Positions 35,165 to 58,346 of a stretch of DNA of 63,309 nucleotides are shown here, in pieces; the stretch's first letter is position 1; each line of letters begins with the position of its first letter. Source of the stretch: Sphaerochaetaceae bacterium (GTDB taxonomy: Bacteria > Spirochaetota > Spirochaetia > Sphaerochaetales > Sphaerochaetaceae); assembly GCA_028532765.1 (NCBI GenBank), contig JAQQAR010000070.1:1-63309 (forward strand). Direction: 5' to 3'. Both the position numbers and the translations under genes were made by a program. The notes under the pieces are model-generated. The model was not told where the DNA came from. It saw only the letters and a program-made list of their open reading frames with translations, and did no database searches.

Positions 35165-36766
35165 ATGCCGAAACCGAAGAAATACACCCCTACATCCTTC
35201 ATGGTAAAGGAATCAACCTACGACAAGACCCTGGCCGACCGTGCAGTTGGGTTCATCGAATGCCTCTGCCACACCAAGGGGGTTTGGGCTGGAAAGCCCT
35301 TCAAGCTGCTTGGCTGGCAGGAGAGAATCATCCGCGACCTGTTCGGTATCGTCAAGACCGATGGATATCGGCAGTTCAACACCGCCTACATCGAGATTCC
35401 CAAGAAGAACGGCAAGAGCGAGCTCGCCGCCGCGGTGGCACTGCTGCTGACCTGTGGAGACTTCGAGGAACGCGCCGAGGTCTACGGGTGTGCAGCCGAC
35501 CGGCAGCAGGCATCGATCGTATTCGAAGTGGCAGCGGACATGGTGCGCATGTGTCCCTCGCTGAATCGACGCGTCAAGATCCTCGCCGCCACCAAGCGCA
35601 TCGTGTACCTGCCGACCAACAGCTTTTATCAGGTGCTGAGCGCCGAAGCCTACTCCAAGCACGGATTCAATATCCATGGGGTGGTCTTCGATGAACTGCA
35701 CACCCAACCCAATAGAAAGCTCTTTGATGTGATGACCAAAGGCTCGGGTGATGCGCGTGCCCAACCGCTGTTCTTTCTGATCACCACCGCGGGCACTGAC
35801 CAGCACTCGATCTGCTACGAACAACATCAGAAGGCCAAGGACATTCTCGAGGGAAGAAAGCACGATAAGACCTTCTACCCGGTGATCTACGGCTCAGAAG
35901 AGGACGACGACTGGACCGATGCAAAGACATGGAAGAAAGCCAACCCGTCGCTGGGGCATACCATCACCCTCGAGAAGGTGAAGGCGGCCTGTGACAGCGC
36001 AAGGCAGAACCCGGGCGAGGAGAACGTGTTCCGTCAACTCAGGCTCAACCAATGGGTCAAGCAGGCGGTGCGCTGGATGCCGATGGAGAGGTGGGACCTG
36101 TGCAACTTCCCCGTCGATGCCGAGGAGCTCGAGGGCAGGGTCTGCTACGGCGGACTGGATCTCTCGTCGACCACCGATATCACTGCGTTCGTGCTCGTAT
36201 TCCCACCCAGGGATGAAAATGACAAGTTCATGATCCTCCCCTGGTTCTGGATACCCGAGGACAGCCTGGGCCTGCGTGTGAGGCGTGATCATGTGCCCTA
36301 CGACGTATGGGAACGAACCGGCCACGTACAGACCACCGAAGGCAACGTGGTCCACTACGGATTCATCGAGGCTTTCATCGGCGAGCTCGGCAAGAGATAC
36401 AACATCCGGGAGATCGCGTTCGACCGTTGGGGAGCGGTGCAGATGGTGCAGAACCTTGAGGGCATGGGCTACACGGTGGTGCCCTTCGGACAGGGATTCA
36501 AAGATATGAGCCCCCCGACCAAGGAGCTGATGAAGCTGGTATTGGGGCAGAGCATCGCACATGCGGGCCATCCGGTACTCCGCTGGATGATGGACAACAT
36601 TTTCATCCGCACCGATCCGGCTGGAAACATCAAGCCCGACAAGCAGAAGTCCACCGAGAAGATCGACGGCGCGGTTGCCACAATCATGGCACTGGATCGG
36701 GCGATCAGGTGCGGCAACGAAGTGCGCGAATCGGTCTACGAGGACCGAGGCATCCTCTTCATCTAG
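35165..36766 (+). CDS. Terminase large subunit
   Basis: The 533-residue packaging motor has the ATPase Walker A IEIPKKNGKSELAAA near residue 78, Walker B GVVFDELHTQPN near 173, and coupling motif FLITTAG. The C-terminal RNase H-like nuclease has the acidic residue in YGGLDLSSTTDITAFVL and later FDRWGA. It belongs to the Terminase_1 family typical of HK97-type phages. It starts the head-gene operon; portal follows after 18 bases. Confidence 0.95.
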   Translation: MPKPKKYTPTSFMVKESTYDKTLADRAVGFIECLCHTKGVWAGKPFKLLGWQERIIRDLFGIVKTDGYRQFNTAYIEIPKKNGKSELAAAVALLLTCGDFEERAEVYGCAADRQQASIVFEVAADMVRMCPSLNRRVKILAATKRIVYLPTNSFYQVLSAEAYSKHGFNIHGVVFDELHTQPNRKLFDVMTKGSGDARAQPLFFLITTAGTDQHSICYEQHQKAKDILEGRKHDKTFYPVIYGSEEDDDWTDAKTWKKANPSLGHTITLEKVKAACDSARQNPGEENVFRQLRLNQWVKQAVRWMPMERWDLCNFPVDAEELEGRVCYGGLDLSSTTDITAFVLVFPPRDENDKFMILPWFWIPEDSLGLRVRRDHVPYDVWERTGHVQTTEGNVVHYGFIEAFIGELGKRYNIREIAFDRWGAVQMVQNLEGMGYTVVPFGQGFKDMSPPTKELMKLVLGQSIAHAGHPVLRWMMDNIFIRTDPAGNIKPDKQKSTEKIDGAVATIMALDRAIRCGNEVRESVYEDRGILFI

Positions 36767-36784
36767 GAATCAGGAGATACATAT

Positions 36785-38113
36785 ATGGGACTCATATCCA
36801 AGCTTGTCACCAGAACGCGTGACAAGCCGCAAAACAGGACCAGCGGGTCCTCATACAGTTTTCTCTTCGGAGGATCGACATCCGGCAAGGCGGTGAACGA
36901 ACGATCGTCGATGCAGATGACGGCAGTCTATGCCTGCGTGCGCATCCTGGCCGAGGCGATCGCAGGCCTGCCGCTGCATCTGTACCGTCACGACGATGAG
37001 GCGAGCAAACACAAGGCCAAGGATCATCCGCTGTACACCCTGCTGCACAGCGAGCCCAATGCGGAGATGACCAGCTTCGTGTTCCGCGAGACGCTGATGA
37101 CCCACCTGCTGCTCTGGGGCAACGCGTACGCTCAGATCATCCGAAACGGCAAGGGCCAGGTTGCAGCACTCTACCCGCTGATGCCAAACCGCATGCAGGT
37201 CGACCGCGACAAGAGCGGCAAGCTCTACTACCAATACACCACCAGCGCCGAGGATGCACCGACGATGAAAGGCACTTCGGTGGTACTGGATGCCTCCGAG
37301 GTGTTGCACATCCCGGGCCTGGGCTTTGACGGGTTGGTGGGCTACTCGCCGATCGCGATGGCCAAGAATGCCATCGGCATGGCGATCGCCTGTGAGGAGT
37401 ATGGGGCGAAGTTTTTCGCCAACGGGGCTGCCCCAAGCGGGGTGCTGGAGCATCCGGGAACGGTGAAGGACCCTTCCCGCCTGCGCGATACGTGGCAAGG
37501 CCAATTCGGCGGCTCATCCAATTCGCACAAGGTCGCGGTACTCGAAGAGGGAATGAAATACACCCCCATCTCGATCTCGCCCGAGCAGGCGCAGTTTTTG
37601 CAGACACGCAAGTTCCAGATCAACGAGATCGCACGCATCTTCCGCGTCCCCCCTCACATGGTGGGGGACTTGGAGAAGTCCTCGTTCAGCAACATCGAGC
37701 AGCAGTCGCTGGAGTTCGTCAAATACACCCTTGACCCGTGGGTCATCCGCTGGGAGCAGGCGCTTTCGCGAGCACTGTTGGCATCCGATGAGAAGCAGAC
37801 GCATTTCTTTCGCTTCAACGTCGAGGGACTGCTGCGTGGCGACTACCAGAGCCGCATGGGCGGGTATGCCACCGCACGCCAGAACGGATGGATGAGCGCC
37901 AACGATATCCGAACGCTGGAGGACATGGATCTCATTACCGACGAGGACGGAGGAAACCTCTACCTCATCAACGGAAACATGCTCCCCCTCTCTCGGGCAG
38001 GGGCATTCGCAGACAAGGCTACCAACACATCCCAGGAGGAGAGTAATGAAGAACAAGAAGTTCTGGCAATGGAAAAACCAGAGCGAAGAAGAAGGCAGAG
38101 CGAGAATCCTTGA
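36785..38113 (+). CDS. Portal protein, HK97 family
   Basis: The 442-residue protein has the HK97 portal signature: MQMTAVYACVRILAEAIAGL, then LLLWGNAYAQIIR, FQINEIARIFRVPPHMVGD and QSLEFVKYTLDPWVIRWE. It forms the dodecameric channel at the capsid vertex. The 3' end overlaps the protease gene by 68 bases. Start ATG 36785 has AGGAG upstream. Confidence 0.95.
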   Translation: MGLISKLVTRTRDKPQNRTSGSSYSFLFGGSTSGKAVNERSSMQMTAVYACVRILAEAIAGLPLHLYRHDDEASKHKAKDHPLYTLLHSEPNAEMTSFVFRETLMTHLLLWGNAYAQIIRNGKGQVAALYPLMPNRMQVDRDKSGKLYYQYTTSAEDAPTMKGTSVVLDASEVLHIPGLGFDGLVGYSPIAMAKNAIGMAIACEEYGAKFFANGAAPSGVLEHPGTVKDPSRLRDTWQGQFGGSSNSHKVAVLEEGMKYTPISISPEQAQFLQTRKFQINEIARIFRVPPHMVGDLEKSSFSNIEQQSLEFVKYTLDPWVIRWEQALSRALLASDEKQTHFFRFNVEGLLRGDYQSRMGGYATARQNGWMSANDIRTLEDMDLITDEDGGNLYLINGNMLPLSRAGAFADKATNTSQEESNEEQEVLAMEKPERRRRQSENP

Positions 38114-38774
38114 GCTTTCGGGCACGATCGCCGAGGAGAGCTGGTTCGATGATGATGTCACACCCGAGCAGTTCAAGGATGAGCTGTTCGCCGACAGCGG
38201 CGAGGTGACCGTGTGGATCAACAGCCCCGGTGGGGATTGCATCGCAGCGAGTCGCATCTACGCGATGCTCATGGATTATCCGGGAGCAATCACTGTGAAG
38301 ATCGACGGGATCGCAGCGAGCGCCGCCTCGGTCATCGCGATGGCGGGCACGAGGGTGCTCATGGCGCCCACTGCCTTGATGATGATCCACAATCCCATGA
38401 CGCTCGCCTATGGAAACCATCAGGACATGCAAAAGGCCATAGGCATGCTGGATGAGGTGAAGGAAAGCATCGTCAACGCCTACGAGATCAAGACGACCCT
38501 CACCCGGGCGAAGATCAGCCACCTGATGGACAACGAGACGTGGATGAATGCCAAGAAGGCCATTGAGTTGGGCTTCGCCGATGCGATCCTCGAGGATGCG
38601 AAGAAAGCGTCCAATGAGGCATCGTATGCGTTCTCGATGCGCACCTCGCAGCTCTCACTGATGAACAAGATCACCGAAACCTATGCACACACAGAAAACC
38701 AGGAGCCACCTGAACAAGGCAGAGCCGCCCTTGGCGAGCTCGAGAAACGACTGAATCTCATCAAACCCCAATAG
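38046..38774 (+). CDS. ClpP-like prohead protease
   Basis: The 242-residue serine protease of the ClpP/crotonase-like phage family has the oxyanion glycine loop INSPGGDCIAASRIYAM, the nucleophile Ser in GIAASAASVIAMAG near residue 92, and His in LMMIHNPMT near 115. It trims capsid and scaffold proteins in prohead maturation. It lies inside the portal 3' end, with GGAGGAG before the start. Confidence 0.94.
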   Translation: MKNKKFWQWKNQSEEEGRARILELSGTIAEESWFDDDVTPEQFKDELFADSGEVTVWINSPGGDCIAASRIYAMLMDYPGAITVKIDGIAASAASVIAMAGTRVLMAPTALMMIHNPMTLAYGNHQDMQKAIGMLDEVKESIVNAYEIKTTLTRAKISHLMDNETWMNAKKAIELGFADAILEDAKKASNEASYAFSMRTSQLSLMNKITETYAHTENQEPPEQGRAALGELEKRLNLIKPQ

Positions 38775-38785
38775 GAGACAACACA

Positions 38786-39988
38786 ATGGGAAAGATCAAC
38801 GACATGCGCTCCCAGCGCGCGAAGACCTGGGAACAGGCGAAGGCATTTCTTGATGCGAAGCGCAACGACAAGGGCATCCTGAGCGCCGAGGACACCACCA
38901 CCTACGAACGTATGGAAGAGGAGATCGTGGATTTGGGCCACGAGATCGAGCGCCAGGAGCGCATCGAGGCGTTCGAGCGCGAGCTGAACGCACACGTGGG
39001 CTCTCCGATCACCAGCCGCCCCGATGGAGCACAGAAGGCTGAGAAGAAAGCAGGACGTGCTTCGGACGAGTACCGTAAGGCGTTCTGGAACCACCTCAGA
39101 CGCCGCGAGAACGCACCTGAACTGCGTAACGCATTGCAGGTGGGAACCGACACCGAAGGCGGCTACCTGGTGCCCGACGAATTCGAACACACCCTCATCA
39201 AAGCACTTGAGGAGGAGAACCTGTTCCGCTCAATTGCCAGAATCATCCAGACCGCCAGCGGCGATCGCAAAATTCCCATCAGTGCATCCAAGGGTGAGGC
39301 GGCATGGATTGATGAGGAGGGAACCTATCCTGAGAGCGACGACAGTTTCGGGCAGGTGACCATCAGCGCCTACAAGCTGGGTACGATCATCAAGGTGTCC
39401 GAGGAGCTCATCAACGACAGTGTGTTCGACATCGAGTCTTACATCGCCACCGAGTTCGCCCGCCGCATCGGAGCCAAGGAAGAGGCGGCCTTCTTCACCG
39501 GGGACGGATCGGGCAAACCGCTGGGTATCCTCGCGGCCACCGGGGGTGCACAAATCGGCGTCAACGCGGCTTCCGCAACCGCCCTGCATGCCGATGAGGT
39601 CATCGACCTGTACTATGCACTGCGATCTCCGTATCGCAAGAACGCAGTGTGGGTGACCAATGATGCCACCGTCAAGGCACTTCGCAAGCTCAAGGACGGC
39701 AACGGGCAGTACATCTGGCAGCCTTCGCTGACTGCAAACACCCCTGATACCATCCTGTCCCGTCCGGTGAAGACCTCGGCTTACATGCCCGAGATCGCAG
39801 GTGGGGCCAAGACGCTGGCCTTCGGGGACTTCTCGTACTACTGGATCGCCGACCGCCAGGGACGTACCTTCAAGCGCCTGGGCGAACTGTTTGCTCCGAC
39901 TGGACAGGTGGGCTTCCTGGGCTCTCAGCGTGTGGATGGGCGACTGATCCTTGGCGAGGCCGTCAAGGTCCTGCAGCAGAAGGCCTAA
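38786..39988 (+). CDS. Major capsid protein, HK97 gp5 family
   Basis: The 400-residue protein has an N-terminal coiled-coil scaffold region (residues 1-110, highly charged) followed by the HK97 fold: GGYLVPDEFEHTLIKALEE, then SEELINDSVFDIESYIA, ending with RVDGRLILGEAVKVLQQK. The coiled region is probably removed by the upstream protease. It starts 12 bases after the protease stop. Confidence 0.95.
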   Translation: MGKINDMRSQRAKTWEQAKAFLDAKRNDKGILSAEDTTTYERMEEEIVDLGHEIERQERIEAFERELNAHVGSPITSRPDGAQKAEKKAGRASDEYRKAFWNHLRRRENAPELRNALQVGTDTEGGYLVPDEFEHTLIKALEEENLFRSIARIIQTASGDRKIPISASKGEAAWIDEEGTYPESDDSFGQVTISAYKLGTIIKVSEELINDSVFDIESYIATEFARRIGAKEEAAFFTGDGSGKPLGILAATGGAQIGVNAASATALHADEVIDLYYALRSPYRKNAVWVTNDATVKALRKLKDGNGQYIWQPSLTANTPDTILSRPVKTSAYMPEIAGGAKTLAFGDFSYYWIADRQGRTFKRLGELFAPTGQVGFLGSQRVDGRLILGEAVKVLQQKA

Positions 39989-40000
39989 GGGAGGTTATTG

Positions 40001-40249
40001 ATGTCATATAACACCAAGAACTACCGCGAGCAGGGCGGTGAGAAAACTGTAATCGGCGGCGAGGTGATCCTCGCTGCGAATGCGAAGGTAACCATCGATC
40101 CAGCGGCGATCATCGAAGGGCTGCCCAGTGGCAGCATCAATGCCGCTGCCAGCCAGGCAGACAGCACGGCTACTACCATCGAGGATCTCGTGGTGGATTT
40201 CAATGCACTGCTGGCCGCCCTCAAGAGTGCGGGCCTGATGGCCAGCTGA
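40001..40249 (+). CDS. Head fibre / decoration protein
   Basis: The 82-residue protein has NYREQGGEKTVIGGEVILA near the start, a Gly/Ala-rich middle, and a C-terminal helix LVVDFNALLAALKSAGLM. This matches phage head fibre proteins that follow the capsid gene in siphophages. Start ATG 40001 has AAGGGAGG 7 bases upstream. It is followed by a hairpin at 40278-40303. Confidence 0.75.
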   Translation: MSYNTKNYREQGGEKTVIGGEVILAANAKVTIDPAAIIEGLPSGSINAAASQADSTATTIEDLVVDFNALLAALKSAGLMAS

Positions 40250-40277
40250 CAGTAAACGGATTCCAAGGATTTTTGGG

Positions 40278-40303
40278 GGCATCCCGGTAAAAACTGGGGT
40301 GTC
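40278..40303 (+). other. Intergenic hairpin after the head fibre gene
   Basis: GGCATCCC pairs with GGGGTGTC across a GGTAAAAACT loop, with two wobble pairs. There is no T-run after it, so it may protect upstream mRNA rather than terminate. Confidence 0.4.
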
Positions 40304-40329
40304 CATCATTTCGATGATGGAGGAAGCGC

Positions 40330-40875
40330 ATGATCGCCAGTATCGCCATGTTCAACACCTACAGCGGCAATTATGAGGACTCTCCCGAGGCCGTAGAGCT
40401 CAAGGGCGCTTTCCTCTCCACTGCCGAGGATATCGTGAGCTCGTACCTGGGCTTCGATCCAAAGCAGCAGGAGTATGCCGATGTGGTCGCCTCGGGCTCG
40501 GGCTCTAGACGCCTGTACCTACGTGCGCGCAACATCACCAGTGTCGAAGCGCTCACTGTGGGGATGGTCAAAGTGGATACCACGTTGGTGGCACCGTGCG
40601 ACGACCATATCCGTTTTGTGGATCACACCACCAAGTTCCCCATCGGTGAGGACAATATCGTGGTGAGCTTCACAGCGGGATGGGATATCGGGCAGATGCC
40701 TTCGGTGATCGTCGTCTCGATCCTACGTATCGCCACGCTCATGCTCAGCGAGACCGGTGGCAACATCGGCCTGACAGGCAAGAGCTTTGCCGACAACAGC
40801 CGCACGTTCGTCAATTACAGCAACTACCGCAAGTACCTGCAGCCACTGGACAGCTTGCGCATCCTGGGGTTCTGA
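40330..40875 (+). CDS. Head-tail connector protein (gp6-like)
   Basis: The 181-residue protein has the helical gp6-like head-tail connector pattern: an N-terminal helix FLSTAEDIVSSYLGF, a beta region, and VVSILRIATLMLSETGGNIG near the C-terminus. It probably binds the portal and gives the first ring of the neck. Its position after the capsid genes supports this. Confidence 0.72.
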   Translation: MIASIAMFNTYSGNYEDSPEAVELKGAFLSTAEDIVSSYLGFDPKQQEYADVVASGSGSRRLYLRARNITSVEALTVGMVKVDTTLVAPCDDHIRFVDHTTKFPIGEDNIVVSFTAGWDIGQMPSVIVVSILRIATLMLSETGGNIGLTGKSFADNSRTFVNYSNYRKYLQPLDSLRILGF

Positions 40876-40876
40876 C

Positions 40877-41395
40877 ATGTTTGAGAGACGGAAACGATAC
40901 AGCACCGAAAGCGTATCGGTCGAGACCGACCTGGCTGAAGCATTAGGGTACCTCGAATCCCTCGGGGTAAATCGGCACAAGGCGATGCGACGTATCCTGG
41001 GCGGCATCGGCACGGCCGCAAGAGCCCAGGTACGCAAGGCCTACAAGTCCCACGGGCTCTCCAAAGGTAGTGGGGCGCTGTACAAGAGCATCAGCCGCCG
41101 TGTGATCCGAAGCGGCAAAGCGGTCATCGTCGAAGCCAAGGCTTCCTCACAAGAGACCAAAGTATTCTACGGTTACGCGCTGGCCAAGGGAGCTCGGATC
41201 ACTGCTAAAAATGGAGGGTATCTGACCTTCCAAAAGGACGGCAAGTGGGTGCGCGTGCATTCGGTGAAGCTTCCCGAGCGCGATTTCGTGGCCGCTCCGG
41301 TGAAGAAGTACCTGAGCACGACGGCCTTCAAGACGAAGCTCGATCAGCTGGTGCAGCGGGAAGTGGCGCGTATTGAAAAGGAGAGTAAACGATGA
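40877..41395 (+). CDS. Neck / head-tail joining protein (gp10-like)
   Basis: The 172-residue basic protein has AEALGYLESLGVNRHKAMRR and a later strand-rich part (SISRRVIRSGKAVIVEAK). It resembles HK97 gp10-type proteins that join the connector and tail. ATG 40877 is one base after the previous stop. The stop overlaps the next start as ATGATGA-like sequence. Confidence 0.65.
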   Translation: MFERRKRYSTESVSVETDLAEALGYLESLGVNRHKAMRRILGGIGTAARAQVRKAYKSHGLSKGSGALYKSISRRVIRSGKAVIVEAKASSQETKVFYGYALAKGARITAKNGGYLTFQKDGKWVRVHSVKLPERDFVAAPVKKYLSTTAFKTKLDQLVQREVARIEKESKR

Positions 41396-41850
41396 TAACT
41401 GAGATGCAGGTACTCGAAAGGCTCAAGACAGTGATTGCCACTGATTTGATCGGTTTGCAGGAGAGCGAGGAGGGGATTTCCATCGAGCACTTCGACGATA
41501 AGAACATAGAGATCGATTTCCCCGATGTGGACAGCATGCGGCGACCCACGATGCTTTACATCCAGCCCGATTATGAGAACCTCGAGCCGCTGGGCATGAA
41601 CAGCGACCTGGCCACCATGCGCGCAACCATCTTTCTCCTGTGCAAGAGTGCACCCAACGCGATTCTGGTCAAGCGTGTATTCGCACTGTATGGAGCCCTG
41701 TACCTACTCGTACGAGGTGATCCCACGCTGGGAGGATTCATCGAGGACGCGCGCATCACCGACATGGACTACTACCCTGCCGTAACCGCAAGCACGACGG
41801 TCACCGCCATCGAGGCAAGCATCGACTTGCAGTGGTCCAAGGAATTCTAA
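41392..41850 (+). CDS. Probable tail terminator / minor tail protein
   Basis: The 152-residue protein has the position, length and alternating alpha/beta pattern of tail terminators: MITEMQVLERLKTVIATDL at the start, then TMLYIQPDYENL, then an AIEASIDLQW end. It would cap the tail tube. No single motif proves this. Confidence 0.6.
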   Translation: MITEMQVLERLKTVIATDLIGLQESEEGISIEHFDDKNIEIDFPDVDSMRRPTMLYIQPDYENLEPLGMNSDLATMRATIFLLCKSAPNAILVKRVFALYGALYLLVRGDPTLGGFIEDARITDMDYYPAVTASTTVTAIEASIDLQWSKEF

Positions 41851-41868
41851 ACAAGAGAGGAAACGCAT

Positions 41869-42828
41869 ATGGCATTTTACACAGGAACGGGATCGCGGCT
41901 GCAGGCAGGCAAGGAAAGCTCCTTCGCCCAAGCTGCCAGTCCCACAACACTGGTCGATCTGACCAGTGAAAGCATCAAGGTGGCTGTCGAGAAAGGTGAC
42001 GAGGGTTCGCTGCTGGGAAGCAAGACTGCTACGAACCGCGATCTTCTGGCGGTGACGGTGGAGGGCTCGGTGAGCTTCATCCTCCGACCCGAATCGGCTG
42101 GCCTCATCCTGCATGCGGCCCTGGGAGGAGAAGATACCTGCACCCAGGTGGGGGAAACGGATGAGTACACCCACACCATCGGTCTTTGCGATGTGAACGA
42201 AGCACTTCCAAGCCTCACCTTCACCATTGATCGCAAGGCGGCTATCAAGCGGTATGTGGGGTGCACCATCAGCGCCCTCAGCCTGGATTGCGCGGCCGGC
42301 GATTACGTGAAGGGCAGCATGGACCTCAAGGGGACCACCGAGGAGACGGGAACGCTCGATGCGGCGCTGAAAGCCTTCAGCATCCCCTCGTACCGGTGCA
42401 CCAATGCGACCTTCACGGTCAACGGCACAGCGTACGACATCACCAGCGCATCACTGAAGATCGACAACGCGCTCGAAAGCTCCCCACGCACCTATGCCTC
42501 AGGCCTGTATGCAGGCAGGCCCCAGCATGGAAAGAGAGCTGTGACCATCAACTTCGAGATCCCCTACAGCGCCGAGGTTGAAACGCTCAAGAGCTCGTAC
42601 CTGACCAGCGAGGAGAACGCTTCTGTCCAGCTGACCTTCTCTTCCCCTTCGGCGGGACACAGCATCACCATCACCCTCTCGCATGTGGCGATCAGCGAGG
42701 TGGATGCGAATGTCGGGGGAACGGGCATACTCAGCTCTACCGTCGCGGGCGAGGCGCTCAGTGTGGGCACCGATGAGCCCATCACCATCGTGATCACCGA
42801 CAAGATTTCGACACCCTACGGAGGATAA
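41869..42828 (+). CDS. Major tail tube protein
   Basis: The 319-residue beta-rich protein has FYTGTGSRLQAGKESSFAQA, a common opening in phage tail tube proteins, and a C-terminal Ig-like segment. It forms the hexameric rings of the tail tube. It is preceded by AGAGAGG and followed 5 bases later by the assembly chaperone. Confidence 0.85.
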   Translation: MAFYTGTGSRLQAGKESSFAQAASPTTLVDLTSESIKVAVEKGDEGSLLGSKTATNRDLLAVTVEGSVSFILRPESAGLILHAALGGEDTCTQVGETDEYTHTIGLCDVNEALPSLTFTIDRKAAIKRYVGCTISALSLDCAAGDYVKGSMDLKGTTEETGTLDAALKAFSIPSYRCTNATFTVNGTAYDITSASLKIDNALESSPRTYASGLYAGRPQHGKRAVTINFEIPYSAEVETLKSSYLTSEENASVQLTFSSPSAGHSITITLSHVAISEVDANVGGTGILSSTVAGEALSVGTDEPITIVITDKISTPYGG

Positions 42829-42833
42829 CAGCC

Positions 42834-43283
42834 ATGTTTATCAAGACAAGACATTATGACGCGTGCATACAGAAGGTACGCATCGAAGTGGGAACACTGG
42901 TGGGCCTCAAGGCCGACGACGAGGCATACATCGTGCTCAAGGAGCTGCCCACCTTGGAGATGCTCAAGCTGAAGGAAGCCTCCGAGCAGGGGGAGAATCA
43001 GACGCTCACCCTGCTTCGCGACCTGCTTCCCTCGATCCTGGTTGATCACAATTTCTACGAGGATGCGGATGCCAAAAAGAAGATGGACAACCGCGAAGTT
43101 GCCTCACTGGTGTTCGAGTCGCTGGATCTGACGGTGAAGGTCGTCAACGAATACACCCATGCCGCTTTTTTTTCCCGTGCGGACGCGAGCGGCGCCAGAT
43201 CGCATCCCTCTGCACAGAAATCTTCAACGGACGACGTAGCGCCGAGCTCTACGCCGAGTACGGCCACTGGCTCTTCTACATAA
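42834..43283 (+). CDS. Tail assembly chaperone, unshifted product (gpG type)
   Basis: The 149-residue zero-frame product has the conserved domain in residues 1-113 (KTRHYDACIQKVRIEVGTLV, then LLRDLLPSILVDHNFYE). After the T-run, the last 36 residues become low-complexity Ser/Thr/Ala, typical of sequence that is not under selection in this frame. This supports frameshifting at 43166-43173. It acts in tail assembly and is normally absent from the virion. Confidence 0.85.
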   Translation: MFIKTRHYDACIQKVRIEVGTLVGLKADDEAYIVLKELPTLEMLKLKEASEQGENQTLTLLRDLLPSILVDHNFYEDADAKKKMDNREVASLVFESLDLTVKVVNEYTHAAFFSRADASGARSHPSAQKSSTDDVAPSSTPSTATGSST

Positions 43284-45832: not shown

Positions 45833-47638
45833 ATGAGCATCATACACAGCCCCTCTCTCACCCTCACCTTCCTGGGAGGCGACCTCGAGACGGGACACTC
45901 CTTGGTACAGACGATCGCCGAACAGCATATCGCACGCAGGTCGATCACCTTCCACCAGCAGCTGCTGTCCGGCTTGAAAAGCGCCTCGAATCAGGTTGAT
46001 CTGCTCTTGGATAAGACTTGCCCTGCGATCGAGGATATCATCGCCACCGAAGGCGATGTGAAGGCCACCCTCACCGACGGCACTGAGACCCTGTTCACCG
46101 GCTACCTCTCAACCAGCTACAGCTGGATGCTCACCCACAGCGGAAAGCAAGCGCTGGCGATCACCATCGAGGACACAGGCACCCGGCTGTTGGGAAAAGC
46201 CTTCATTGAAAGTGGACGGCACCTATTCAACTGCACAGCCAGCGAGGCGATCGCCTCTATCTGCACAAGAGCGGGTATCACCGTATCACCAGATTGCATT
46301 TCCCTCACTGCAACGGTCACCCGAAGCGTGGATGGATCGGTCACCTGCGGCGAGCTGCTGGACCAATTGGTCTACGAGCTGGGCTGTGTGTACTTCTTCG
46401 ACGAGCTGGGACACCTCAGGCTCTTCAAGGTGGACTGCACCTCCACCGAAGCTCTGCCCACCCTCGACAAGGACGACTTGGTTGTGGTGGGAGGCAAGGC
46501 GATCACGCTTTCCAAGAAGATCCGCCAGTACAAGAGTGCGCGGGTTTCTTTTACCCGCCTGGGGGAGGCCAGCGACTATCTGGTGTACCGCAATACCACA
46601 GGACGAGGGGATGGGCACCCGTATTGTTACCTCAAGCTGGAAGGTGGTGCGCACTTCGACGGCAGTGAAATCTATACCCAAGGCGAGTGGACCGAAGCCC
46701 AGACGGACAGTTTCCGCACTCCCGCTCTGATCGAAGCCTGCAACGCCGCAAGTGAGATCGATATCGTGGGATCGAGCGACATCATCGCCGTCTCGAACGT
46801 GTGCACCGAGTTCACCGCCGAAAGCGGCTACATCACCGCGAGCATCAGCGCAGCCGGAGGTCCGTACCTGGCGATCGAGGCATACAATAGCGGGACCTTC
46901 GCCTACCACATCACCAGACTCGATGCCTATGCCGACATCATTTATGTGCGTGACACGAACATCGTCAGGACAGCCGACAGCGTCTACGAAGGTGAAAAGT
47001 CGGACAATTTGCTCTCCGAGGAGCTGGTATTCGTGCACGAGCGCACCCTGGCCCAAGCGCATGCGAACCTCCTGGGCCAGTTCCACCGCCATGCTGGCAG
47101 CCAGTACATCTTCTTCTCGGCAGTCGACTTGAGGTGCGGCAGCCTCGTCAGACTCATCGACAACGCCTTCAGCGGCCTGAATGTTTCAGTCCTGGTGACC
47201 GCACGCACCTTCACCGATGAGAGTGCGGTGTACCGCTACGAGGCGGTGGGCATCTCGGCATTCGACCTGAGTGCCCCAGCATACCTTCAGGTACTCGACA
47301 GGGGCAAGAACGACACCGTCGGTTCCCCAGGGCCACCGGGGGTGGACGGCTCGTCGTACACCGTATCCATCCAGTCGTCCAACGGCTCGATCTTCCGACC
47401 CGAGCAGGTCGATACGATCCTCACCTGCCACGTCCACAAAAACACCACAGAGATCACCGAAGAGCTGGATGCCTCGCGCTTTCGGTGGAAGCGCCTCAGT
47501 GCCGACCCCGTCGATGACGGGCGGTGGAACACCTCATCAAAGGCAATCGCCCATAAGAGTGTCGAAATCAAAAACGCAGACTGCGTCGGACGTACGGTCT
47601 TCTTCTGTGAGATCGACCTGACCGGCTACGAAGCATAA
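45833..47638 (+). CDS. Tail tip / hub protein
   Basis: The 601-residue protein resembles the tail-hub part of siphophages: residues 1-370 beta-rich with a segment GYLSTSYSWMLTHSGKQALA and a carbohydrate-binding-like middle. A collagen-like GPPGVDG stretch follows near residue 500, and a short Ig-like end. The position after tape measure supports a distal tail or baseplate hub. Confidence 0.65.
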   Translation: MSIIHSPSLTLTFLGGDLETGHSLVQTIAEQHIARRSITFHQQLLSGLKSASNQVDLLLDKTCPAIEDIIATEGDVKATLTDGTETLFTGYLSTSYSWMLTHSGKQALAITIEDTGTRLLGKAFIESGRHLFNCTASEAIASICTRAGITVSPDCISLTATVTRSVDGSVTCGELLDQLVYELGCVYFFDELGHLRLFKVDCTSTEALPTLDKDDLVVVGGKAITLSKKIRQYKSARVSFTRLGEASDYLVYRNTTGRGDGHPYCYLKLEGGAHFDGSEIYTQGEWTEAQTDSFRTPALIEACNAASEIDIVGSSDIIAVSNVCTEFTAESGYITASISAAGGPYLAIEAYNSGTFAYHITRLDAYADIIYVRDTNIVRTADSVYEGEKSDNLLSEELVFVHERTLAQAHANLLGQFHRHAGSQYIFFSAVDLRCGSLVRLIDNAFSGLNVSVLVTARTFTDESAVYRYEAVGISAFDLSAPAYLQVLDRGKNDTVGSPGPPGVDGSSYTVSIQSSNGSIFRPEQVDTILTCHVHKNTTEITEELDASRFRWKRLSADPVDDGRWNTSSKAIAHKSVEIKNADCVGRTVFFCEIDLTGYEA

Positions 47639-47650
47639 GGAGCACCTACA

Positions 47651-48697
47651 ATGGCAAAGACAAGCGCCAGTTTCACGCTGATGGATTATACCGACGGTAT
47701 TTCCCTCATCACCGGTATCGACAGCAATCTGCCCCTCACCAGCCTGTACGATACATCGAACCAGACCCTCAATCCCTCGTGGGCAGGAGACACCTCGCTG
47801 CAGCTCACCCCTGTGGTGCGCAAGGCAGGAGGGACCGATGTCGTTTCCACCATGACAGCCAAGGCCTGGAAGCGCCGTATCGCAGGTTCGGCCACCTGGA
47901 CTACGGTCACCAGCGGTTCCAACGGTGAGACGATCAATGCCACCAGCGGGGTACTCACGGTGAGCGAGGACAAGCTCACGACCGATGTGTGGCAAATCGA
48001 CTACCAGTTCAGCGGCACCTACACCGATCCGGTGCTGAACCTCGCCTTTCCCGTGACGATCGTCATCACCCTCTCGCGGGTGGCCAACGGCACCTCATTC
48101 GTGGTCGCCCGGGCCTACGCCACCGGAGGCAGCCAGTTCAAGAACCACAGCCCCTCCTCCCTGTCGCTCAAGGCCGAGCTCATCCGCGGTACCACCAAGG
48201 ACACGACAAACCTCGACTACCAGTGGAAAAAATCGATCAACGGGACCGTCTGGGAGGATATCGCAGGAGCAACTGCGGCCACCTTGGCTGTCACTCCTTC
48301 CATGGTGGATTCGTTTGCGATGTTCAAGTGCTCGATCCTGGACACCGACGCCACCTCCGACACTTTCAACATCAGCTACGACACCGAGGCCGTTTCGATC
48401 CTGGACGTCACCGATCCCTACCAGGCGGTCATCGAGTCCACCGCGGGAAGTTATTTCAAGAACGACACGGGCAGCACCACCCTCATCTGCCGTGTGTATC
48501 AGAACGGCGAGGAGATTGACGGGACCGGAGTGAGCCTCACCTACACATGGACCAAGACCGACAAGGACGGGACAGCGGTGGCGTTCACCCCCACGGCGGT
48601 TGCCCATGGATCGATCGTCACCACCAAGAAGAAGGCCATCTCCGTCTCGCACGATGATGTGACGGTCAAGGCCACCTATTTCTGTTCGGTCAGCTGA
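47651..48697 (+). CDS. Tail protein with Ig-like domains
   Basis: The 348-residue beta-rich protein contains repeated Ig-like segments (SLKAELIRGTTKDTTNLDYQ with KSINGTVWEDIAG; later LICRVYQNGEEIDGTG with LTYTWTKTDKDG). Similar domains decorate tail tips and help attachment to carbohydrate. No catalytic residues are seen. It sits between the hub and the fibre genes. Confidence 0.6.
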   Translation: MAKTSASFTLMDYTDGISLITGIDSNLPLTSLYDTSNQTLNPSWAGDTSLQLTPVVRKAGGTDVVSTMTAKAWKRRIAGSATWTTVTSGSNGETINATSGVLTVSEDKLTTDVWQIDYQFSGTYTDPVLNLAFPVTIVITLSRVANGTSFVVARAYATGGSQFKNHSPSSLSLKAELIRGTTKDTTNLDYQWKKSINGTVWEDIAGATAATLAVTPSMVDSFAMFKCSILDTDATSDTFNISYDTEAVSILDVTDPYQAVIESTAGSYFKNDTGSTTLICRVYQNGEEIDGTGVSLTYTWTKTDKDGTAVAFTPTAVAHGSIVTTKKKAISVSHDDVTVKATYFCSVS

Positions 48698-48712: not shown

Positions 48713-51700
48713 ATGGCACTAACCGGCGCAAGTTATACCCTCACATCCCTCAGCGACGCCCCCTCGTACCAGTTGCAGCTGACAATGTCTTCTGCCTCCT
48801 CAGGGATTTTGGATCTTGCTTTCTACAAGAACGGGTTGCTGTACACACCCTCGGTATACGTGCATGCACGCAGCTGGAACGGCAGCAGCTGGGCCCAAAG
48901 CGGTGCAAGCGGGACCATGACAGGGGGAGTTCGCTCGTACAGCTACAGCTCGGCGGGTGCCTTCGATGTGCAGATCTACACCGATTCGTCCAAGACCGAG
49001 CTGCTGGCCACATCATTCGTCTCCTATGGTGAGACCGGAGAGGCGGGCTCTGACGGGGTGGCGGGATCCGATGGGCTCAGTGTCACCCCGATCCACCAGT
49101 TCGCGCTTCTTGCAGAAGGGGTATCTCCGGGGGCCGCTACACAGTGGAGCGAAACCTTGCCCGGTCCTTGGTATTACGGCTATGAGTACTGGACGCGCGT
49201 CAAACAGGTGTGGAGCGACTCCACTCCCCAAGAACCTCATATAACCTACACAGAACCTTTTTTGGATGTCGGGGCGAACACGCTGCTGCGCAATTCGATC
49301 TCGTTTGCCATCAGGAGCAACCGAAGCACCTATGAGCGCAACGTACGCAGCGTGGAAAACTCGATCGTGGTCCTCAGCGCCGACAGCCGAGGGTACGAGA
49401 ACGCTACCTTCCAATGGCTGATCAACGCCGAATCCTATGCGGGAGGAGAGCTGACACTCACCATCCCCAAGAAGCAAGCGCCATCCCAGATCGATATCAC
49501 CTGCACGATGTCTTATACCCGTCTGGGTAGTACCGAGACGATGATACGTACACTCACCCTCTCGGCCAACGATGTGACCGAGTACACCAAGAGCTACGGG
49601 ATCCTGGGGGGTCCCGGGACCATCAGCGATGCGATCGAAGGGGATTGTTATGTGCTGCAGACGGGAGACGACTATGTACCCCAGGTGTTCGCCAGCGGTT
49701 CGTGGATTCCCATCACCAGCCAGAACGCAGCCCAATATCCCGAGGCGATGAGCAAATGCGGCAACGCGGTGCTCCTCGGTGGGGCGAACATTCCCGTCAC
49801 CTCCACCGCACTGTACGCATACTATCGTACCCTGTATGCGCAGTCGGCGAATATCGATGTGCTCTCCACACAGGATCTGCAGATCATCGATACCGGACGC
49901 ATCCGCTCGATGGGAAAGCACGCGATCGGGGATGGGAATTCGGGTTTCATCATCAACAGCGACGGCACCAGCGAGTTCGTCGGTACGGTCATCCGCAACG
50001 CCGATCTCTCAGAGACCCGTATCGAGCGCCTTGATGCCGATGTGCTGCGCACCGTCAACGAGGTACGTACCGGCGAATCACTCAACGGCTCGTTGTCCTC
50101 AACCCCCTATTGGGACTTGGGGACGGTTATGGGGGACCTCATCGCCCAGGTCGCAGCCAACTCGGTTGTGCACAAGGGCGGCTCGTTCATGGCCACCAAG
50201 GTGGAAGGTGGCTCTGTATCCACCGTCTTCGAGAACGTGTTGCATGTCACCTCTTCTGGCGAGCGCGATCAGGACCGCAGCCTGCTCAACCAGCAGATCA
50301 CCACGGCAAATGCGGGAACCGCTTTCACCGTCCCCTCCCTGCCTGCTTACACCCAGTCTCCACTAAGGCTCGGAGGAGTCAACTACCTTGCGAAAATCAC
50401 CTCCACAGGTGCTGAGGTTGCAGGCAAGAAGCAGTACTCGCTCGATGGAGGGGGTACCTGGACCGACTACGACAGTCGCACACTCGATCATGCGACGGTA
50501 GCGGGCAAGACCGTCAAGGTTCGCCAAGTGCTCAGCGGCACCTTGTATGACCCAGGCAGTTGTACGACCGGACGGGTATCTGGCATCAGTTCGACATCCT
50601 CATCAACCCCTCACTTGGCGGAGGGAAACGGCAGGATGGTAGTCGCGTGGGGCTCGACGCTCAAGTCATTTCCCACCGGGAACGTGGGCTCGGTCTCATC
50701 GTATTCGCTGAGCACAGCGTATCCTTCCACCATCGGTCTGGCATTCGGCAATGGTATCTTCCTGGCCCTCTGCTCGGGCTCGGTCCAACGCCGTGTACTC
50801 TCAGGTGGAGCGAACGGCACTTCGTGGAGCGAGCTGTCCAGCGAGGCTTACGACAACCTGTTCTTCGCCAACGGATACTTTTACGCCCATGTGTTTGGCG
50901 GGGGTGCCTCCGATTGGAAACGCTCGACCAACGGAAGCGGGTGGACAGCTGCAGGTTTCACCTGTGCCCATCCATTCCCATCCTACAATAACGATTTCAT
51001 GAACTCACGCATCACATACGGAAACGGCGTCTATATCCAGGTCAGCTATGTCACCCTCTCATCAGAATCGGTGTATCGAAGCACCGATGGGCAGAATTGG
51101 AGTGCGATCAATATCGCCAGCACGTGCCCCAGCGGCATAGCTTGGGGCAACAATTTCTTTATCGCCTACGAATACGGCAGTGCGTATTACTATGTCTCGG
51201 GCAACGGAGGAACCACCTGGTCCAAACGCTCCCTGGGCTACACGCCCACCAAGATGGGTTCTGCCGTCTATGCCGCCAGTGGAGCCAATCCCGCTTCGAC
51301 GGGTACCACGCTACAGCGGGTGTTCTACGCCATCGACAGCGCGGGGTATCTCAGTGCGCTGACGCTCAATACAGCAACACCCACCTCGTATACGGCGGGA
51401 ACACTCAGTGCAGCCTACAATTACAGCGCCTACGATGTGGGCATTAATCTGCTGGATGGGCAGGGGGCGAAGATCAGCAGCCATACCACAGCCAAGGATT
51501 ATTATGCCGGCACATTCATCTTTGACGGGACCAACCTCTCTGCAGCTCTAGGCTCGTTCTATTACAAGTTCGCAGGCATCTTCAAAGCCGGCACCCAGGT
51601 GGCTGCCGGGGCCTTCGACATGTTCCAAAGCATCGCCATTGCATGGAACCGCATCTACAACAGCATCGAAGGTCCTGTGGCGAGCCCTGCAATCGTAAGC

Positions 51701-52030
51701 TGGTCGGGAACCAGTTTGACGATCACCGGTGCCGGGGGAGTTACCTCTCGCATCCGCAGCAACGACCTGTTCTCGGCCCTTTCGATCTCCTTCACCGTGA
51801 TCGCCGAGGCGAAGGGAGCATATACCAAGGCCCTGTATCCCCAACAAGCTAGCCAGTTTGATATCGGCGTGTCCTCGAATCCGTATGCGAATGTCCATGC
51901 GAACACGTTCCATGGGAATCTGCAAGGGAGCGTGAGTGGGAATGTGAGCGGTAATGTCACGGGTAATGTGACGGGAAATGTGAATGTACAAGGCACCACC
52001 AACAAGGTGTGGGGGGCTGTATGGAACTAG
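48713..52030 (+). CDS. Large tail fibre / host-recognition protein
   Basis: The 1105-residue protein has a tail-associated N-terminal half (with ESLNGSLSSTPYWDLGTVMG). A middle beta-propeller carries Asp-box/BNR-like repeats (YSLDGGGTWTDYD; KRSTNGSGWTAAG; YRSTDGQNWSAIN; SGNGGTTWSKRS). A glycine/valine/asparagine repeat close to the C-terminus (GSVSGNVSGNVTGNVTGNV) forms a shaft-like end. Asp-box propellers often bind or cut glycans, so this is the likely receptor-binding fibre. Confidence 0.8.
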   Translation: MALTGASYTLTSLSDAPSYQLQLTMSSASSGILDLAFYKNGLLYTPSVYVHARSWNGSSWAQSGASGTMTGGVRSYSYSSAGAFDVQIYTDSSKTELLATSFVSYGETGEAGSDGVAGSDGLSVTPIHQFALLAEGVSPGAATQWSETLPGPWYYGYEYWTRVKQVWSDSTPQEPHITYTEPFLDVGANTLLRNSISFAIRSNRSTYERNVRSVENSIVVLSADSRGYENATFQWLINAESYAGGELTLTIPKKQAPSQIDITCTMSYTRLGSTETMIRTLTLSANDVTEYTKSYGILGGPGTISDAIEGDCYVLQTGDDYVPQVFASGSWIPITSQNAAQYPEAMSKCGNAVLLGGANIPVTSTALYAYYRTLYAQSANIDVLSTQDLQIIDTGRIRSMGKHAIGDGNSGFIINSDGTSEFVGTVIRNADLSETRIERLDADVLRTVNEVRTGESLNGSLSSTPYWDLGTVMGDLIAQVAANSVVHKGGSFMATKVEGGSVSTVFENVLHVTSSGERDQDRSLLNQQITTANAGTAFTVPSLPAYTQSPLRLGGVNYLAKITSTGAEVAGKKQYSLDGGGTWTDYDSRTLDHATVAGKTVKVRQVLSGTLYDPGSCTTGRVSGISSTSSSTPHLAEGNGRMVVAWGSTLKSFPTGNVGSVSSYSLSTAYPSTIGLAFGNGIFLALCSGSVQRRVLSGGANGTSWSELSSEAYDNLFFANGYFYAHVFGGGASDWKRSTNGSGWTAAGFTCAHPFPSYNNDFMNSRITYGNGVYIQVSYVTLSSESVYRSTDGQNWSAINIASTCPSGIAWGNNFFIAYEYGSAYYYVSGNGGTTWSKRSLGYTPTKMGSAVYAASGANPASTGTTLQRVFYAIDSAGYLSALTLNTATPTSYTAGTLSAAYNYSAYDVGINLLDGQGAKISSHTTAKDYYAGTFIFDGTNLSAALGSFYYKFAGIFKAGTQVAAGAFDMFQSIAIAWNRIYNSIEGPVASPAIVSWSGTSLTITGAGGVTSRIRSNDLFSALSISFTVIAEAKGAYTKALYPQQASQFDIGVSSNPYANVHANTFHGNLQGSVSGNVSGNVTGNVTGNVNVQGTTNKVWGAVWN

Positions 52031-52041
52031 GAGGAACAACC

Positions 52042-52356
52042 ATGCAATGCAATGAATGTGGACGGCAGCTGACTAAGCTGCCCTTTATCTTGGACGACAG
52101 CGAGATCGCCGACATGCAACTGGCGATCGACAAGATCAATACCGCACAGACCGCCCTGAAGGCTGAGGTGTACTCATCCTACCGATTCGAGCAGGACAGG
52201 GACATCTACGCCTACTTCAAGGCGGTCTTCGACGAGATGGCGGAGGGCAGGTTCCTGTATGCCATCTGGGAGCGTCGCGTGCGTAGTCATTACAACTACC
52301 CCGAGGGCGAGCTCCTGGTGATCAACGGCGAATGCTTCGCCCATGAGGCTTCGTGA
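52042..52356 (+). CDS. Small CxxC protein upstream of the Cys-rich gene
   Basis: The 104-residue protein opens with MQCNECGRQLTKLPF, a single CxxC knuckle, then a helical domain (DMQLAIDKINTAQTALKAE). No family is recognised. It starts with AGGAGG 7 bases upstream. Its stop overlaps the Cys-rich gene start as TGATG, so it is coupled to the modified-peptide locus and may be a carrier, chaperone or tail component. Confidence 0.6.
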   Translation: MQCNECGRQLTKLPFILDDSEIADMQLAIDKINTAQTALKAEVYSSYRFEQDRDIYAYFKAVFDEMAEGRFLYAIWERRVRSHYNYPEGELLVINGECFAHEAS

Positions 52357-53003
52357 TGGGAACCTATAATGATATCAGAAGCCGCTTCGAGGCGATCCAG
52401 GAGGCCTTCCGCGTCAACGGTTACCAGCGCTACGACAACTATTATGTGTTCTCCCCGCCTGCTGGCTTTGCCATCGGCCTATCCATGAAGGCTTCGGACA
52501 TGAACGCAATGAAGGATGCGCTGCAGGGTAATACCCGCGCGCTTCTGTACACCACCTACCCCATCGCCTCGGTAGCGACAGGGAGTCTGATCAGCGCCAA
52601 TCTGCTGAGCCAGATCGATCAGTACAAACAGGACATCAATGATCTGCGCGGATGCGCCAACTGCAGCAACACGTGCACCTCGACGTGCTACAACGGCTGC
52701 CACAACTGCACAGGAGGGTGTACTGGATCGTGCACCGGGTGCAGCGGTTGTTCTGGCTGCAGCGGATGCTCGGGCAACTGTTACAGCTGCAAAGGGGGAC
52801 TGTGGTGTGTTTCGTGCCATGGATGCAGCGGATGCGGAGGATGTCGCGGCTGTGGTGGATGCACCGGCAATTGCCAAAGTGCCTGCTCGGGCTGTACATC
52901 CTGCAGTACCAACTGCAACGCCAGCTGCAACGTGAACTGTTCGGGTGCATGCAAGAATTCCTGCTCGAGCGGCTGCTCGAACTCATCACGCATTGGAGGC
53001 TGA
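52356..53003 (+). CDS. Cys-rich tail-associated precursor protein (candidate RiPP substrate)
   Basis: The 215-residue protein has an ordinary phage-like N-terminal domain in residues 1-99 (DIRSRFEAIQEAFRVNGYQR, then FAIGLSMKASDMNAM). From residue 100 to 207 it contains 31 cysteines, almost all spaced as CxxC or CxxxC, with Gly, Ser, Asn and Thr between. The pattern is CX2C runs in the middle and CX3C at both ends. The next gene, one base later, encodes a radical SAM/SPASM enzyme. The N-terminal domain may serve as leader and virion anchor, and the Cys region as the modified core. Metal binding is an alternative explanation. Confidence 0.8.
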   Translation: MGTYNDIRSRFEAIQEAFRVNGYQRYDNYYVFSPPAGFAIGLSMKASDMNAMKDALQGNTRALLYTTYPIASVATGSLISANLLSQIDQYKQDINDLRGCANCSNTCTSTCYNGCHNCTGGCTGSCTGCSGCSGCSGCSGNCYSCKGGLWCVSCHGCSGCGGCRGCGGCTGNCQSACSGCTSCSTNCNASCNVNCSGACKNSCSSGCSNSSRIGG

Positions 53004-53004
53004 T

Positions 53005-54261
53005 ATGCTCATTCCCTTTAGAGAACCAGGGTTGTTCAACGTTACGCTGAACACCACCGAGGACTGCAACCTCAGGTGCACCTACTGCTATGAGGTGCAC
53101 AAGAGAAGAAGAACCCTCTCGATGGAGGATGCGAAGGCCTTCATCGACCACATCCTCAACGACCCCGATCCTGCGGGTTTGTTGGATGATCCTGATCCGG
53201 TCTTCCGCAAGGCATACCAAAAGGGGCTCGTCGTCGATTTCATCGGCGGCGACAGCTTCATGGATGTACCGTTCCTGGACGAGATCTGCTCCCACACACT
53301 GGCCAAGGTGATGACCACCGACACCCCCAATGCCAAAAACTGGCGGGGCAAGCTCCATTTCTCCATCTCCACCAACGGCACGCTCTTTTCCGAGCAGGCC
53401 AGGAAGTTCTGCGAGAAGTACAGGGACCTCTTGCTGGTGGGCATATCACTCGACGGATGTCCCGCCATCCATGACGCAAACCGGGTGTTCCCTGATGGGT
53501 CCGGTTCGATGCAGAGCATCATCCGCCATTGGCCGTGGTATAAGAAGACCTTCCCGATCCAGTCGATGCAGACCAAGTCCACCGCGAACCGCCAGAGCAT
53601 CCCTCATCTCTATGATTCGCTGGTGTATCTGCATGAACAGCTGGGGCTGCGGTACATCAACCAGAACTTCATCATGGAGGATACGGGGTGTACCCAAGCC
53701 GACTACGAGGAACTGGACCGTCAGATGAAAAAGTGCACCGCCTATGTGCTTGAGCATCGCGACGATCTGTTTTGGAGCATGCTCAGCAAGGAGCAATTCG
53801 GTTACGCGCATCTGTCCACAGGGCCTGATTGGGACTGTACCGGCCACTGCGGAAGCGGGGCTATGCCCGCCCTCTCGGTGGACGGCAGGATCTATCCGTG
53901 CATCAGATGGCTGCCCCACACTCAAATCGACAAGGCCGATTTCATCGTCGGGACCGCCAAGGAAGGGTTCACCCACAAGGAGAACTTTCTGAGGGTTCGC
54001 GAGGGCGCCTACCGATCCAATTGCTCACGTGATGAGAAGTGCAGGACATGCGAGGTGGAGAGCGCATGCTCGTACTGCATCGGAGGCTGTTACTCGGAGT
54101 TCGGCGAGTTCAAAAGGACGACCTACATCTGTGAGATCACCAAGCTGCTGGTCAAATGGGCTAGACGATATTGGGATGAGTACAACCGGCTTGAAGGACT
54201 GGATCAGATCGACTGGGCTATTGAAGCCAGGGAGAAAGGGAACCGACACGGAATCGGATAA
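53005..54261 (+). CDS. Radical SAM/SPASM peptide-maturase-like protein
   Basis: The 418-residue enzyme has the radical SAM motif CNLRCTYC (Cys21, 25, 28), the SAM-binding GGD in DFIGGDSFMD, and a central TIM barrel. The C-terminal SPASM domain has CGSGAMPALSVDGRIYPC (C-X11-G-X4-C), then CRTCEVESACSYCIGGC and a last C in YICE, enough for two auxiliary Fe-S clusters. SPASM proteins install cross-links or other changes in ribosomally made peptides, commonly on Cys. It directly follows the Cys-rich gene (one base, GGAGG before ATG 53005), so the Cys-rich protein is the probable substrate. Confidence 0.9.
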   Translation: MLIPFREPGLFNVTLNTTEDCNLRCTYCYEVHKRRRTLSMEDAKAFIDHILNDPDPAGLLDDPDPVFRKAYQKGLVVDFIGGDSFMDVPFLDEICSHTLAKVMTTDTPNAKNWRGKLHFSISTNGTLFSEQARKFCEKYRDLLLVGISLDGCPAIHDANRVFPDGSGSMQSIIRHWPWYKKTFPIQSMQTKSTANRQSIPHLYDSLVYLHEQLGLRYINQNFIMEDTGCTQADYEELDRQMKKCTAYVLEHRDDLFWSMLSKEQFGYAHLSTGPDWDCTGHCGSGAMPALSVDGRIYPCIRWLPHTQIDKADFIVGTAKEGFTHKENFLRVREGAYRSNCSRDEKCRTCEVESACSYCIGGCYSEFGEFKRTTYICEITKLLVKWARRYWDEYNRLEGLDQIDWAIEAREKGNRHGIG

Positions 54262-54466
54262 TGATCTTTCGATGATTTGGTCTTATTATACATCTTCCAT
54301 TCGTTAAGCCATGTGTAATGCTTCCTCGATGATTAATACAGCCAAATCTTTACAATATTACGAAGAAGTTATATGCAAAAAGGAAATACATTGAGAATCG
54401 AGTAAAATATGTTACAATCAAATAATGGGAAATTTTCAATATTATCAAATCTTTCAGGATTGCAAT

Positions 54467-57929: not shown

Positions 57930-58346
57930 ATGACTGATCAACAATCAACGCAGATTACGAACATGAGAGAAAGTGGCTTGGGATATTCTACGATTGCAAA
58001 CCAAATAGGGCTTCCAAAGGAATGCGTAAAATCTTATTGCAGGACTCACGGACTTACGGGAAGGAGATCCTCCTCGCATGTGGATAAGGAAGTGGGTAAC
58101 AACACTTGCCGTACTTGTGGGAGATACTTGCAGCACACTCCTGGAAAGAGGAAGAAACAGTACTGCTCGGATGCTTGTCGTATGGATTGGTGGAATGCGC
58201 ATCAGGACAAGGTGAAGCGAAAAGCGTACTATTCGTTCACATGCGCCGAATGTGGTAAGACCTTCAGCTCATACGGAAATGCAAAAAGAGTCTACTGCAG
58301 CCATTCTTGCTATATCAAGGCTCGTTTTTCCAAGCGGGAAAAGTAG
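57930..58346 (+). CDS. HTH and zinc-knuckle protein of the recombinase locus, paralog 1
   Basis: The 138-residue protein has an N-terminal helix-turn-helix (QITNMRESGLGYSTIANQIG, residues 8-27), then two zinc-knuckle segments: CRTCGRYLQHTPGKRKKQYC, and later CAECGKTFSSYGNAKRVYC. The module is repeated in the next gene (58736) and at the C-terminus of the second serine recombinase (60659). The start ATG 57930 has GAGGAG. Function is unknown; a DNA-binding accessory or regulator is likely. Confidence 0.75.
   Translation: MTDQQSTQITNMRESGLGYSTIANQIGLPKECVKSYCRTHGLTGRRSSSHVDKEVGNNTCRTCGRYLQHTPGKRKKQYCSDACRMDWWNAHQDKVKRKAYYSFTCAECGKTFSSYGNAKRVYCSHSCYIKARFSKREK

Follow-up and report, generated by a model that had tools for sequence, protein, structure and literature searches.

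The window, as we call the whole stretch of Sphaerochaetaceae DNA analysed here (63,309 nucleotides), holds a prophage, with head and tail genes and, to their right, two serine recombinases. The head and tail module lies on the forward strand at 35165..43283 and comprises genes for the terminase large subunit, portal, head protease, major head protein, adaptor and minor tail protein. Further along the same strand are a tail-fibre-related protein (45833..47638; phrog_2929, E 1.7e-13), a tail protein (47651..48697; phrog_3267, E 1e-57) and a 1105-aa fibre-like protein (48713..52030), for which no family match was found. The last of these ends in ...VWGAVWN, which resembles the end (...VKGAVWND) of the gene before the corresponding cassette in a related lineage, L015. 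Eleven base pairs further on stand three more forward-strand genes, encoding a 104-aa protein (52042..52356), a 215-aa cysteine-repeat protein (52356..53003, with its stop codon at 53001-53003) and a 418-aa radical SAM/SPASM enzyme (53005..54261, with its ATG at 53005). From the tail protein through to the enzyme, successive genes are spaced by 15, 11, -1 and 1 bp, and the cysteine gene and the enzyme close the prophage tail operon. The original prediction had correctly placed the enzyme gene a single base beyond the cysteine gene; it described both of these genes and missed the 104-aa gene, which overlaps the cysteine gene by one base.

The DNA to the right of the enzyme gene carries features of its own. 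Between the cassette, which it directly follows, and the recombinases is the gene for a 996-aa protein (54425-57415) that carries a lipoprotein-like signal (LSSC), falls in no Pfam family and is possible prophage cargo. Two similar small proteins are encoded in tandem (57930-58346 and 58736-59155; 138 and 139 aa), the first of which matches phrog_2308 and HNH-type families. The two large serine recombinases (59367-62683) are adjacent and overlap by a few bases.

The cysteine-repeat protein, the presumed substrate of the enzyme, contains exactly 31 cysteines, every one of them within residues 100-207 (52653..52976), just as had been predicted. Successive cysteines are three residues apart in 15 cases, four in 14 and six in one, so that the expected CxxC or CxxxC spacing holds for 29 steps and fails only at C145-C151. 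In this 108-residue core, Gly, Ser, Asn, Thr and Ala make up 84% of the non-cysteine residues, and Asp and Glu are absent. The preceding ~99 residues (52356..52652) form a predicted helical domain, presumed to serve as an anchor, a leader or both. The AF2 prediction has a mean pLDDT of 43, with three helices at low confidence in the N-terminal domain and no fold modelled for the core. Comparison of the N-terminal domain with the PDB gave no significant match, and the TIGR04117 profile for CXXX-repeat targets aligned to the repeat part only, scoring 14 bits, below its cutoff of 50.

Nine Sphaerochaeta-type copies of the gene keep all 31 cysteines, and 19 of the 31 cysteine codons differ synonymously among them. 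Across these copies dN/dS is 0.028 in the cysteine region and 0.115 in the N-terminus: purifying selection is stronger on the cysteine region than on the N-terminus. A DNA pattern for a five-fold CxxxC has five matches in the 3.16-Mb genome, three of them inside this gene. Because the pattern is so rare and the region is under purifying selection, we do not regard the array as a product of chance. An antisense open reading frame (52636-53358) is also cysteine-rich, but selection, the overlapping and 1-bp gene spacing, and conservation favour the forward strand.

The enzyme has a complete radical SAM motif (C21xxxC25xxC28) at the positions foreseen, and its Pfam PF04055 score of 30.4 bits exceeds the cutoff of 29.5. 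The SPASM cysteine set is likewise full, as had been claimed (C282-x11-G294-x4-C299 ... C346xxC349x5C355xxC358xxxC362 ... C376); it conforms to the pattern Cx9-15Gx4C...CxxCx5CxxxC...C and is kept in the complete homologs. Its second block, CxxCx5CxxCxxxC, has one cysteine more than the canonical CxxCx5CxxxC. Among NCBIfam models, the best match is TIGR04115, the CXXX-repeat maturases (229.5 bits; cutoff 350), followed by the PapB ranthipeptide maturase NF047865 (130 bits; cutoff 340), and the SCIFF maturase model TIGR03974 scores 73 bits (cutoff 425). Sub-threshold matches also include cyclophane formers, sulfatase maturases and QhpD-like enzymes. The phage enzymes as a group score 128-230 bits with TIGR04115, all under its cutoff, and a gut sequence serving as positive control (L034) reaches 630 bits. 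Since no named maturase family in NCBIfam has a curated cutoff that the phage enzymes reach, the type of bond that they make cannot be read from kinship. The nearest solved structure is CteB (profile E 5e-30, Foldseek E 1e-16). By these comparisons the enzyme is closest to thioether-forming peptide maturases, in keeping with the original prediction, and at the level of sequence it is a phage subfamily or variant near, and outside, the named families.

The 104-aa protein has an N-terminal CxxCG motif, and it gave no match in Pfam, NCBIfam or PHROG. Homologs of it lie directly before the cysteine gene in L009, L015, L017 and L025, so that this third gene precedes the cysteine gene and enzyme in five lineages, the window included. 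We therefore define the cassette as a tail-type gene, a CxxC protein, a cysteine-repeat protein and a radical SAM enzyme, and consider the CxxC protein a candidate substrate-binding or assembly partner. In L018 and in phages of the SPN3US type, a second radical SAM gene takes the place of the third gene; in L018 this gene (L018:1420-2439, radical SAM/SPASM) stands between the cysteine-repeat gene and the main enzyme, a parallel to the two radical SAM genes of the SPN3US-type phages.

Protein and profile searches found relatives of the enzyme at 44-58% identity on uncultured viral contigs of 43-285 kb and on MAG contigs of Treponema, Oscillospiraceae and Elusimicrobiota, together with a 31-39% relative in Elusimicrobiota. 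These enzymes form one clade (support 99/98) that spans Spirochaetota, Bacillota, Elusimicrobiota and uncultured viruses of 159-285 kb. A direct tblastn search of phages with the cysteine protein gave no match, owing to the low-complexity filter, so its counterparts were located by scans of open reading frames around the enzyme and by DNA patterns. All nine lineages of the clade with readable flanks (the window, L008, L009, L015, L016, L017, L018, L023 and L059) have a cysteine-repeat gene within ~1 kb of the radical SAM gene. The pair is thus conserved in phages, which disposes of the possibility that the two genes never co-occur elsewhere. The encoded protein has 489 aa and 92 cysteines in L008, 246 aa and 34 cysteines in L009, 33 cysteines in L015, 33 in the open frame of L016 (where the gene order is reversed) and 73 in L023; L018 has one such gene by the enzyme, and L017 and L059 have two each. 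In a tenth lineage, L024, the cysteine-repeat gene sits at a contig end, ~70 kb from the enzyme, and encodes at least 588 aa with 111 cysteines. A 715-aa enzyme of 31% identity (G381) has no cysteine-repeat gene nearby, and the G323 locus lies at a contig edge.

The ~100-aa N-terminal domains of the window, L008, L009, L015, L016, L023 and L059 substrates are homologous: leave-one-out HMMs recovered them at E 1e-10 to 5e-4 among 2910 sequences, with no background match or a single weak one. The substrates are therefore a gene family, beyond any mere likeness in composition. Tail-type genes usually lie upstream of the cassette in the related lineages, as in L016 (tape measure, fibre) and L025 (tail proteins); the nearest upstream genes in L023 and L026 are not recognisable as tail genes.

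Individual loci show further variation. One L059 protein (L059:5766-6782) has cysteines mostly at every fifth residue, as against every fourth, within the same enzyme clade. On the same 159-kb viral contig, three more radical-SAM-like reading frames (CxxxCxxC) stand in a row upstream of the cysteine-repeat genes and the enzyme (L059:15-3354). In L007 (5410-7455 of IMGVR_UViG_3300028591_000086), an intein-like insertion of ~170 aa interrupts the enzyme just before the third cysteine of CxxxCxxC; it ends in ...VLVHN/C but begins with Asp, and Pfam finds no Hint domain in it. The L015 enzyme frame stops at SPASM Cys358. We considered selenocysteine there, but the stop is a TAG codon and the homologous sequence resumes in a different frame, so the break is due to a frameshift, which probably arose in assembly.

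More distant relatives of the enzyme (~25-30% identity by tblastn) occur in jumbo phages of Salmonella, Erwinia and Cronobacter; because the branches are long, we do not claim common descent with the window clade. Beside the radical SAM genes of these phages, at a distance of 1-2 kb from the enzymes, are two tandem cysteine-repeat ORFs of ~130 aa each, both in PHROG 6085 ('unknown function'). In four annotated phage records, with genomes of 224-246 kb, all five-fold CxxxC matches fall in one cluster, 1-3 kb from the radical SAM genes. The SPN3US annotation has a truncated version of one of the two ORFs (gp166 = ACQ60_gp100) and lacks the other (NC_027402.1 143828-144229, minus strand; L039:18829-19230). 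Opposite-strand ORFs are annotated over them in CR5 (Cronobacter) and Asesino (Erwinia). The SPN3US neighbours gp167 and gp168 are a virion structural protein and a baseplate/fibre protein (PMC5105663), and the main text of the SPN3US proteome papers does not name the cysteine-repeat product. Existing SPN3US virion mass-spectrometry data were processed with carbamidomethyl-Cys set as a fixed modification (PMC10052503), and the cores of these repeat proteins have 0-1 Lys/Arg. PHROG 6085 and its enzymes share with the window a cysteine at every fourth residue, a position beside radical SAM genes and a setting next to virion or tail-fibre genes. They differ in their two enzyme genes, their long enzyme branch and the shorter N-terminus (~50 aa) of the repeat protein, and no ~105-aa CxxC gene was found with them.

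Pseudomonas jumbo phage DT01 (MW735835.1 45864-57623, L056) has six radical SAM genes next to 2OG-Fe(II) oxygenases. No cysteine-repeat ORF was found in the 45 kb read, the DT01 enzymes are not among the matches to SPN3US enzyme queries, and these genes are probably another system. Eight radical SAM genes in the structural cluster of one jumbo phage have been termed 'highly unusual' (PMC12390700).

We lean towards reading the locus as a late-operon phage tail cassette whose product would be a tail-associated protein altered after translation. The cysteine-repeat C-terminus of that protein is most likely the part that the enzyme modifies, and probably cross-links. What can be seen directly is that the prophage co-encodes the 104-aa CxxC protein, the cysteine-repeat protein and the enzyme behind tail-fibre-type genes. 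The conserved linkage suggests that the enzyme would act on the neighbouring cysteine repeat, which it would find through the conserved N-terminal domain, perhaps assisted by the 104-aa protein; such a domain followed by a cysteine core would fit the leader and core logic of RiPPs. Enzyme kinship then points to the step whose chemistry we hold least firmly, in which many intramolecular thioethers would form between cysteine sulfurs and nearby Gly, Ser, Asn, Thr or Ala, giving a rigid, reduction-proof rod or tip.

We rank thioethers as the likeliest product, since the closest families work on cysteine repeats and the closest solved structure belongs to a thioether-forming enzyme. PapB, another maker of cysteine thioethers, links Cys to Asp or Glu (PMC9413430); such bonds are impossible within the window core, which has no acidic residue, so this chemistry was not an apt comparison. 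The same lack of the PapB acceptors lends something to the view that the enzyme modifies the cysteine protein without thioethers, by epimerisation, by C-C or C-N cross-links or by another change to Cys or to Gly, Ser or Asn, and SPASM enzymes do catalyse many reactions, with varied families among the sub-threshold matches here. However, the best matches are cysteine-repeat and thioether families, selection bears on cysteine itself, and no residue but cysteine is conserved in every substrate, all of which makes a thioether-free modification unlikely.

Thioether formation would leave a protein that, from its place in the operon, is expected to stay attached through its N-terminal domain and to be built into the tail or fibre, with no cleavage and export as in a free RiPP. 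The putative substrate, as the original prediction proposed, is a ~215-residue phage protein, and it sits at the end of the tail operon. A prophage-borne secreted RiPP, either a bacteriocin or a signal, whose core is cleaved and exported and whose gene merely lies beside tail genes, would suit an enzyme whose nearest named relatives mature free peptides. One TIGR04115 member, the positive control L034, indeed has a cysteine-repeat partner with a Tat-type leader; it comes from a 6.8-kb gut 'phage' record that may be bacterial DNA. In the window cassette, however, no transporter or leader peptidase gene was recognised, the phage substrates have no apparent signal peptide, and they reach 489-588+ aa with 92-111 cysteines. 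It is because of this, the tight coupling to the tail operon and the recurrence of a tail or virion context in unrelated phages that we favour a tail-attached protein and consider secretion very unlikely. Just as improbable is a core that folds through disulfides or bound metal while the enzyme modifies another part of the tail, for instance the 104-aa protein or the fibre. Dense CxxC motifs are capable of metal binding, and jumbo genomes such as DT01 have radical SAM genes with no cysteine-repeat gene in the same cluster, but the DT01 set is probably a different one, bacterial cysteine-repeat peptides pair with related enzymes, and the linkage of enzyme and repeat is strict in different phyla, whichever of the two genes comes first.

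The known targets of radical SAM/SPASM maturases are small peptides and a few enzymes. Among the open-access papers searched, none described phage structural proteins modified by radical SAM enzymes, and priority is uncertain. The words radical, cysteine and RiPP are absent from a 2026 jumbo-phage review (PMC13282480). If our reading is right, a radical SAM enzyme acting on a tail-associated viral protein whose cysteines can number more than 100 would bring a form of chemistry new to virions, and thioether biocatalysis would gain a substrate of protein size. The reading also gives a concrete hypothesis for the radical SAM genes in jumbo-phage structural clusters, at least where a cysteine-repeat gene adjoins, and one open to testing in SPN3US, which is established as a model phage for genetics. 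Should the pair work as proposed, some tail parts of viruses may be chemically welded by the viruses themselves; the pair recurs in unrelated viruses, including well-studied giant Salmonella phages. We tentatively suggest a widespread class of virion modification, in which cysteine-repeat rods or tips of tails are welded by a phage radical SAM/SPASM enzyme, from siphophage prophages of Spirochaetes through uncultured viruses of more than 250 kb to jumbo phages of the SPN3US type. The small cysteine-repeat genes of the latter, which seem largely overlooked, could belong to the same class, and we offer this with equal reserve.

The original prediction knew of no described family with this arrangement, but TIGR04115 and TIGR04117 already describe a radical SAM/SPASM enzyme adjoining a tandem cysteine-repeat protein, with cysteine mostly at every fourth residue, though the window enzyme scores below the TIGR04115 cutoff. 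The adjacent target that goes with TIGR04115 is present here as the 31-cysteine protein one base upstream, and is kept in related loci. Genomes of the same family (G325:C33 and G390:C1; L032, L033) have a 112-118-aa cysteine-repeat peptide with 18 cysteines adjoining a radical SAM enzyme of 146 bits, also under that cutoff. A SCIFF-type pair in MT835472 (L038) was set aside, as the record looks bacterial. CteB/ScfB, the SCIFF maturase (PDB 5wgg, 5why), is nearest by both profile and fold and makes cysteine thioethers. It is 21% identical to the window enzyme, which begins at the radical SAM core and lacks the N-terminal extension of CteB (the alignment starts at CteB residue 100), and SCIFF is a short six-cysteine peptide in contrast to the 31-cysteine substrate here. 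The window differs from the TIGR04115/TIGR04117 systems in the ~100-aa N-terminal domain, the third CxxC gene, the position in a tail operon and the large phage substrates. A radical SAM enzyme with a cysteine-repeat substrate is thus already known; what is new is the place and the size class.
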